A DNA stretch of 64,000 nt, taken from the NCBI GenBank assembly GCA_003022125.1, contig PXQH01000002.1:1-64000 (forward strand). The letters run 5' to 3'. Both the position numbers and the translations under genes were made by a program. Position 1 is the stretch's first letter, and the number at the start of each line of letters is the position of its first letter. The stretch comes from Cyanobacteria bacterium QS_8_64_29. GTDB taxonomy: Bacteria > Cyanobacteriota > Cyanobacteriia > Cyanobacteriales > Rubidibacteraceae. The notes beneath the pieces were generated by a model. The model was not told the origin of the DNA, did no database searches, and worked only from the letters and a program-made list of their open reading frames with translations. Below are positions 1,714 through 2,853 of this stretch, in pieces.

Positions 1714-2853
1714 CTAAACCGGCACGGTCGCCATCCATGCCGCGCAGCGCTCGATCTGCCGGCGCATGATGGCGGCATCGGCATGGTAGCGGCGGCCGTG
1801 GCCGGGCAAGACCCACTCAAACGAATACTGCCCCAGCGCCTGCATGGACTGGCGCAGCATTGTCCAGGAATACCAACACATGTGCGGGAACGCCACCAGC
1901 TGGCCCAGCTCGTCAGACCAGGCCAGGTGGTCGCCGCTAAACAGAAAGCGCCCGTTGTAGCGCAGCACGATGTAACCTTCGGTGTGCCCCGGAACTGGAA
2001 TGGCCAGCAGGTCCTCGGCCAGCGGGAGGGGGTCGTAGCCCGCCAGGGGCCACTCAATATCGCGAGTGCTCTGGGTTGTTTCTGCGCGGTGCAGGATGCG
2101 ATCGCAGCCAAAGTGCGCCCGGAAGCAAGCGTGGTCGGCCACATCGTCGCGATGGGTCAGCACCATGAGCTGCACGCCCCCCCATAGCTTCCAGTTGCCG
2201 CACTAATGGGGGCGCAAAGCGCGGCGAGTCTACCAGGATGTTGCCGGCCGAGCGCTGGATGAAATAGCTGGCGGCGCCGAAGGACTCAGGTGCGTGGTAG
2301 CCGCAGTGGTAGACGTTTTCGGCAATGGGCAGCGGAAATCGGCGCTGGATGGAGCGGATATCGCGCGGTTTGCTTTCGGTGCCAATATAGCAGTCGTAGA
2401 CCACATGTGAACGGAACTAGCTTGTTGGGCAAAACTCTGGGGCTCTCTCGAACTGGGAGTTAAAGCCCTCAGAGACAAGCCCGCTTATCTGTTCACGATC
2501 CATGTGTTTTTGCTATATAGTAGTCGTAGACTAAGCGTGAACGGGGCTAGCTTGTTGAGTGAAACTCCAGGAGCCTCTCGAAATGGGGATCGAGGCTCTC
2601 AAGTATAAGTACATTTATCTGTTCACGATCCACATGTTTTTGCTATAGATGCCGTGGGGCAAGCGAGCAGCGCTTGCAGGGTGCGCTCTCGCTGGCCCGC
2701 ATCGCCGGATTGGTGGTAAACGGCCGATTGGCCGCCATCGCGATGGAAGACCTCAGGCGCCATCCAGCGGCACGTGTCGCAGTCGATGCAGCTGCTATCG
2801 ACGTAGAACTCGCCGCTGGCGTTCTGCGGGCGCCGCCGCTCGAGTTGCGCCAT
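1714..2853 (-). pseudogene. Ferredoxin-metallo-beta-lactamase fusion protein, split by a tandem insertion and frameshifted
   Basis: The 5' part (2853 down to about 2648) encodes a single-cluster ferredoxin domain, with CIDCDTC near residue 22 and ACPTASI near residue 66. The 3' part encodes a metallo-beta-lactamase fold: THRDDVADH, IPVPGHTEG, FSGDHLAW and VLPGHGRRYH. From memory, cyanobacterial homologues carry both domains in one chain, so these are halves of one gene. Two lesions break it. A tandem 2 x 130-bp insertion lies between 2385 and 2647; removing it gives the natural junction T-A-S-I-G-T-E. The second is a run of seven C (2177-2183) where six would keep the frame from EAMGG into VQLMVLTH. 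No intact product can be made. The original reaction is unknown; a hydrolase or oxygen-handling flavodiiron-like chemistry would be guesses. Confidence 0.85.
2385..2647. mobile_element. Two tandem copies of a 130-bp short element (127 bp plus ATA target repeat)
   Basis: Copies at about 2388-2514 and 2518-2644 align at an exact 130-bp period, with many substitutions but no length change. The trinucleotide ATA stands before, between and after them (2385-2387, 2515-2517, 2645-2647), as expected for a 3-bp target duplication followed by a second insertion or an unequal duplication. Each copy has imperfect ends (TAGCA or TAGTA against TTTTTGCT) and subterminal inverted pieces (GTGAACGG against CTGTTCAC). 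Each also has a central hairpin: GGGCT/AGCCC in copy 1 (2440-2444 with 2464-2468) and GAGCCTC/GAGGCTC in copy 2 (2571-2577 with 2592-2598). The element is non-coding and interrupts the ferredoxin-MBL gene. Confidence 0.8.

Follow-up and report, generated by a model that had tools for sequence, protein, structure and literature searches.

The 64,000-nucleotide stretch of Cyanobacteria bacterium QS_8_64_29 analyzed here (the window) carries two similar short units in direct orientation between the two parts of a conserved gene, and the question raised by this locus is what these units are and how both came to occupy one site. We consider it very probable (about 0.93) that they are non-autonomous MITEs of the IS630/Tc1-mariner class, from two subfamilies, which inserted successively at a single site and split a ferredoxin-hydrolase gene. 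The features of the locus are listed in Table 1.

Table 1. Parts of the interrupted gene and of the two inserted units, in window positions; slashes mark junctions.
Feature	Positions	Strand	Evidence
3' part of interrupted gene, metallo-beta-lactamase-type hydrolase	1717..2387	-	translated homology in two frames
Left TA target copy	2386..2387	.	CCAA-TA/TAGCA; single TA left on removal, frame restored
Copy 1 left terminal inverted repeat with flanking TA (TATAGCAGTCGTAGACCACATGTGAACGG)	2386..2414	+	end motifs near-invariant
MITE copy 1, 128 bp, type A, C43/C40 subfamily	2388..2515	+	95% identity to C43:42499 and C40:930
Copy 1 right terminal inverted repeat with flanking TA (reads TATAGCAAAAACACATGGATCGTGAAC)	2491..2517	-	
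Middle TA common to both copies	2516..2517	.	junction CTA/TA/TAG
Copy 2 left terminal inverted repeat with flanking TA	2516..2544	+	end-pattern match
MITE copy 2, 128 bp, type A, C69/C31 subfamily	2518..2645	+	95% identity to C69:46219
Copy 2 right terminal inverted repeat with flanking TA	2621..2647	-	
Right TA target copy	2646..2647	.	junction CTA/TA/GATG
5' part of interrupted gene, ferredoxin domain Fer4_13	2648..2853	-	Pfam Fer4_13, 3e-20

Homologues of the interrupted gene are intact and about 290 aa long; 57 of 60 genomes of the order contain some match to it, near full-length in about 40, with 56-67% identity. The assignment of its 3' part to a metallo-beta-lactamase-type hydrolase is by our own reading, without a supporting Pfam hit. 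As the initial annotation had proposed, a conserved gene has been split by a small mobile element whose removal restores the codons T-A-S-I-G-T: excising the 260 bp at 2388-2647 yields ...ALLACPTASIGTESKP..., in agreement with 30 homologues, and joins CPTAS to IGT, and the motif CP-T-(A/S/G/C)-S-I-G-T runs unbroken through the same point in nearly all of these 30. A further frameshift in the gene falls at seven consecutive G near 2174-2187; it was recognized because the homology carries on in another frame, and may be either a sequencing error or decay. Because this frameshift comes in addition to the MITE split, the host gene is probably a pseudogene.

A mechanical repeat search resolved the 260 bp into two direct, ungapped units of 128 bp that are 75% identical and spaced by exactly 130 bp. 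The end pattern of the unit matches at 2386 and 2516 and nowhere else in the window (shuffles expect 0), so that the two tandem copies first noted at this locus are confirmed. The inverted ends are imperfect and span about 29 bp; the GTGAACG and TAG ends are almost without change across 26 copies, and the GTTCACGA...TTTTGCTATA of the copy 1 right end recurs in other copies. The 128-bp unit encodes no protein of note in any frame.

The short repeats flanking the units had been read as ATA. Nearly all copies are flanked as TA/TAG...CTA/TA, with a variable base ahead of the TA (A in some copies, C in others), and since the element itself begins with TAG and finishes with CTA an empty site is required to set the boundary. 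Such a natural empty site is provided by mazEF on contig C51, a 92%-identical paralogue of mazEF on C45: the C45 locus has TA/MITE/TA and reads ...CCAACTA/MITE/TAGGATA, and the C51 paralogue has a single TA and reads ...CCAGTTAGGATA. This empty site and the restored gene together show that the duplicated target is TA; the ATA reading arose because an A happens to precede the TA at the window site and is not upheld. As the duplicated target is TA and not ATA, the unit consists of the 128 bp (TAG...CTA) between the TAs.

In the 2.2-Mb draft assembly of this genome the copy 1 unit gives 24 BLAST matches, and the end pattern is found at 24 sites, compared with 0 for a reversed control pattern. In total we count 24 full-length and 4 partial copies of three sequence types, dispersed in unrelated genes at many loci and thus neither lacking elsewhere nor restricted to the gene in the window. 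Type A comprises 17 full copies, both window copies included; type B is present on C13, C67 and C27, together with an internally deleted 74-bp copy on C25 (L019:585-660) that has retained both ends; type C is present on C16, on C1 and twice on C30. We read the unit as a mobile, dispersed MITE of the IS630/Tc1-mariner class. Outside its own genome the end pattern has matches only in QS_4_48_99 (PXPT01000151), a MAG from the same taxonomic family. A DNA search of 390 cyanobacterial genomes with the unit gave, beyond the own genome and one relative, one weak 48-bp match; viral contigs contained no exact match, and literature searches with the end sequences returned unrelated papers only. The earlier statement that no named element has these ends thus stands in that the family was found beyond this genome in one related halite cyanobacterium only, but the ends themselves are of a widespread cyanobacterial IS630 type.

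On contig 151 of QS_4_48_99 (L036/L097), a type A copy is separated by 514 bp from a type B copy. The GC content at this locus is about 0.54-0.58, against 0.43 on the L075 contig of the same MAG, and because of this higher GC content transfer or misbinning of contig 151 is possible. The window itself also contains, at 266-369, a 102-bp element of a second repeat family (TACCAATTTGAG...AATTGGTA) that splits an MFS transporter gene at 34-984. This second family is flanked by TNA repeats (TNA/TACC...GGTA/TNA) and has about 9 additional copies in the examined loci; the TNA duplication suggests that the 102-bp element is an IS5/IS1031-type MITE.

Had the insertion duplicated in place, or had it arrived twice? 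Both possibilities were raised by the initial annotation. A single MITE that inserted and was then copied in place through replication slippage or unequal exchange would account for the common orientation of the copies and their spacing of exactly 130 bp, but the two are only 75% identical to each other, whereas each reaches 95% identity with copies at other loci (C43 and C40 for copy 1, C69 for copy 2), and the tree keeps them apart, with 100/98 support for the group of copy 2 and C69:46219. Local duplication is therefore rejected on subfamily placement; it would survive only if later gene conversion had rewritten one copy, and we regard it as very improbable. Because copy 1 and copy 2 belong to different subfamilies, they represent two already diverged elements that arrived separately and share the middle TA.

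It had also been suggested that each copy keeps a central hairpin and that it may be the fold, and not the sequence, that is conserved. The units might be a structured RNA (a regulatory RNA, a terminator or a self-removing RNA) maintained for its fold, with the gene expressed across them. Copy 1 indeed has a good folding score (z -4.9), and hairpins are possible in both copies, but the central hairpins of copy 1 and copy 2 have no base pair in common and the central z-scores of many copies are near 0. We used RNAalifold and a set of four named structures to test the fold against shuffled controls. Over 26 copies RNAalifold retained the end pairing alone. The end arms TAGCA/TGCTA and GTGAACG/CGTTCAC pair in 96.9% of cells; for a short central hairpin of 6 pairs the figure is 93.5%, with covariation within that of the shuffles. 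The copy 1 and copy 2 hairpin structures likewise score at the shuffled level, so the compensatory stem changes proposed as a check did not exceed what shuffling gives. Further against a structured RNA, Rfam has no match for the unit, stops run through all six frames of the insert, apart from one on the plus strand that has just one stop close to either end, and the host gene carries the extra frameshift. A conserved fold is thus rejected and a structured RNA is extremely unlikely; the ends of the units are conserved by sequence, not fold.

A transposase with matching ends was found in part. At C45:17894-18085 a target TA and TAGCAGAACAACTTTACTCGTGAACGG are followed by an open frame (MLMDQTITHTVKLLELFINDKPSAEELKRALAVKLSWEGY, starting MLMDQTITHTVKLLELF...) that is cut short by the end of the contig. 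Of 29 positions compared between this IS630 left end and the right end of the MITE, 21 agree (10,000 shuffles reached at most 17), and the product of the frame shares 61% identity, over 38 residues, with the N-terminus of an IS630 transposase from QS_4_48_99. Comparison with the C51 paralogue places its insertion in mazF, at a TA. In QS_4_48_99 the element L075 is a full-length, frameshifted IS630 of about 1.1 kb, with HTH_23 and DDE_3 domains between ends that read TATAGCAATC...GTGAACG; the present draft genome yielded no complete autonomous copy, its C45 partner being cut by the contig end. Many related cyanobacterial IS630s have ends of the form TATAGCAATCCTAAATGATTxGTGAA. The MITEs are presumably mobilised in trans by this C45 element; against this, the MITE and the IS630 have only their ends in common and not their interiors. 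Another candidate partner, a DDE_3 fragment on C16 that is the only DDE_3 match of the genome, was rejected, there being no matching end on the visible side of its IS, past the C-terminus; this fragment is itself split by a MITE. The two mazEF loci (L014 and L013) are 92% identical, and in one of them the IS630 left end interrupts mazF.

In the mechanism that we propose, an IS630-type transposase would act in trans, binding the approximately 29-bp ends of the MITE, excising it and inserting it at a TA that would become duplicated. A second MITE would then enter the TA on one side of the first to give TA-element-TA-element-TA, and the double insertion would knock out the ferredoxin-hydrolase gene. 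Here we infer both the succession of the two insertions and the cut-and-paste chemistry, the latter by analogy with ISY100, for which it is known. Some small palindromic repeats of bacteria are moved by RAYTs (PMC3733652), and the units could have moved by another route of this kind, for example REP/RAYT single-strand transposition; given the TA duplication and the paired inverted ends matching the IS630 end on C45, we grant this route next to no probability.

By empty-site reading, MITE insertions also interrupt pilT (C1), a secretin gene (C27), a HEPN gene (C23), an IS630 transposase gene (C16) and, on C43, a cyclopropane-synthase-type gene and the N-terminal region of polyphosphate kinase. 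The MITE-split pilT (L026, C1:126718) and secretin gene (L030, C27:25754) are both of type IV pilus type and may point to loss of pili. Copies are clustered: six neighbour gaps are below 3 kb where random placement predicts 0.9 (P about 0.00015), and three are below 500 bp where 0.15 are expected. This clustering may come from islands that tolerate insertion, and it fits equally with local hopping. Preferential insertion of the MITE beside existing copies (by local hopping or at a TA that flanks one of its own kind), with the head-to-tail pair able to move as a unit, strikes us as rather unlikely.

What this analysis contributes is the description of a MITE family, together with its probable IS630 partner, in a halite-type cyanobacterium whose genome is small. 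Because MITEs break conserved genes there (type IV pilus, cyclopropane synthase, hydrolase), split genes in the automated annotation of this genome should be read as pseudogenes. The MITE pair itself involves no new mechanism.

Among known systems, ISY100 (ISTcSa) of Synechocystis PCC 6803 inserts at TA with TA duplication and needs no more than about 30 bp from each end in cis (PMC2170065). The present unit resembles it in its TA target and duplication and in its short imperfect inverted ends, compared here by description, and differs from it in being 128 bp long without a transposase gene. The family is ordinary in kind and, on a comparison with Nezha by description, undescribed as a family. 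Nezha, from the 2008 work of Zhou, Tran and Xu, has reportedly been attributed to an ISNpu3-like transposase. As it is described where cited in PMC10969869, Nezha of Anabaena/Nostoc is likewise a cyanobacterial MITE of similar size. In Anabaena sp. 90, MITEs interrupt genes and make pseudogenes (PMC3542288), as the present MITEs do in another cyanobacterium; those of Anabaena sp. 90 are called type II, with no matching IS in the genome, whereas the genome analyzed here does have a matching IS end.
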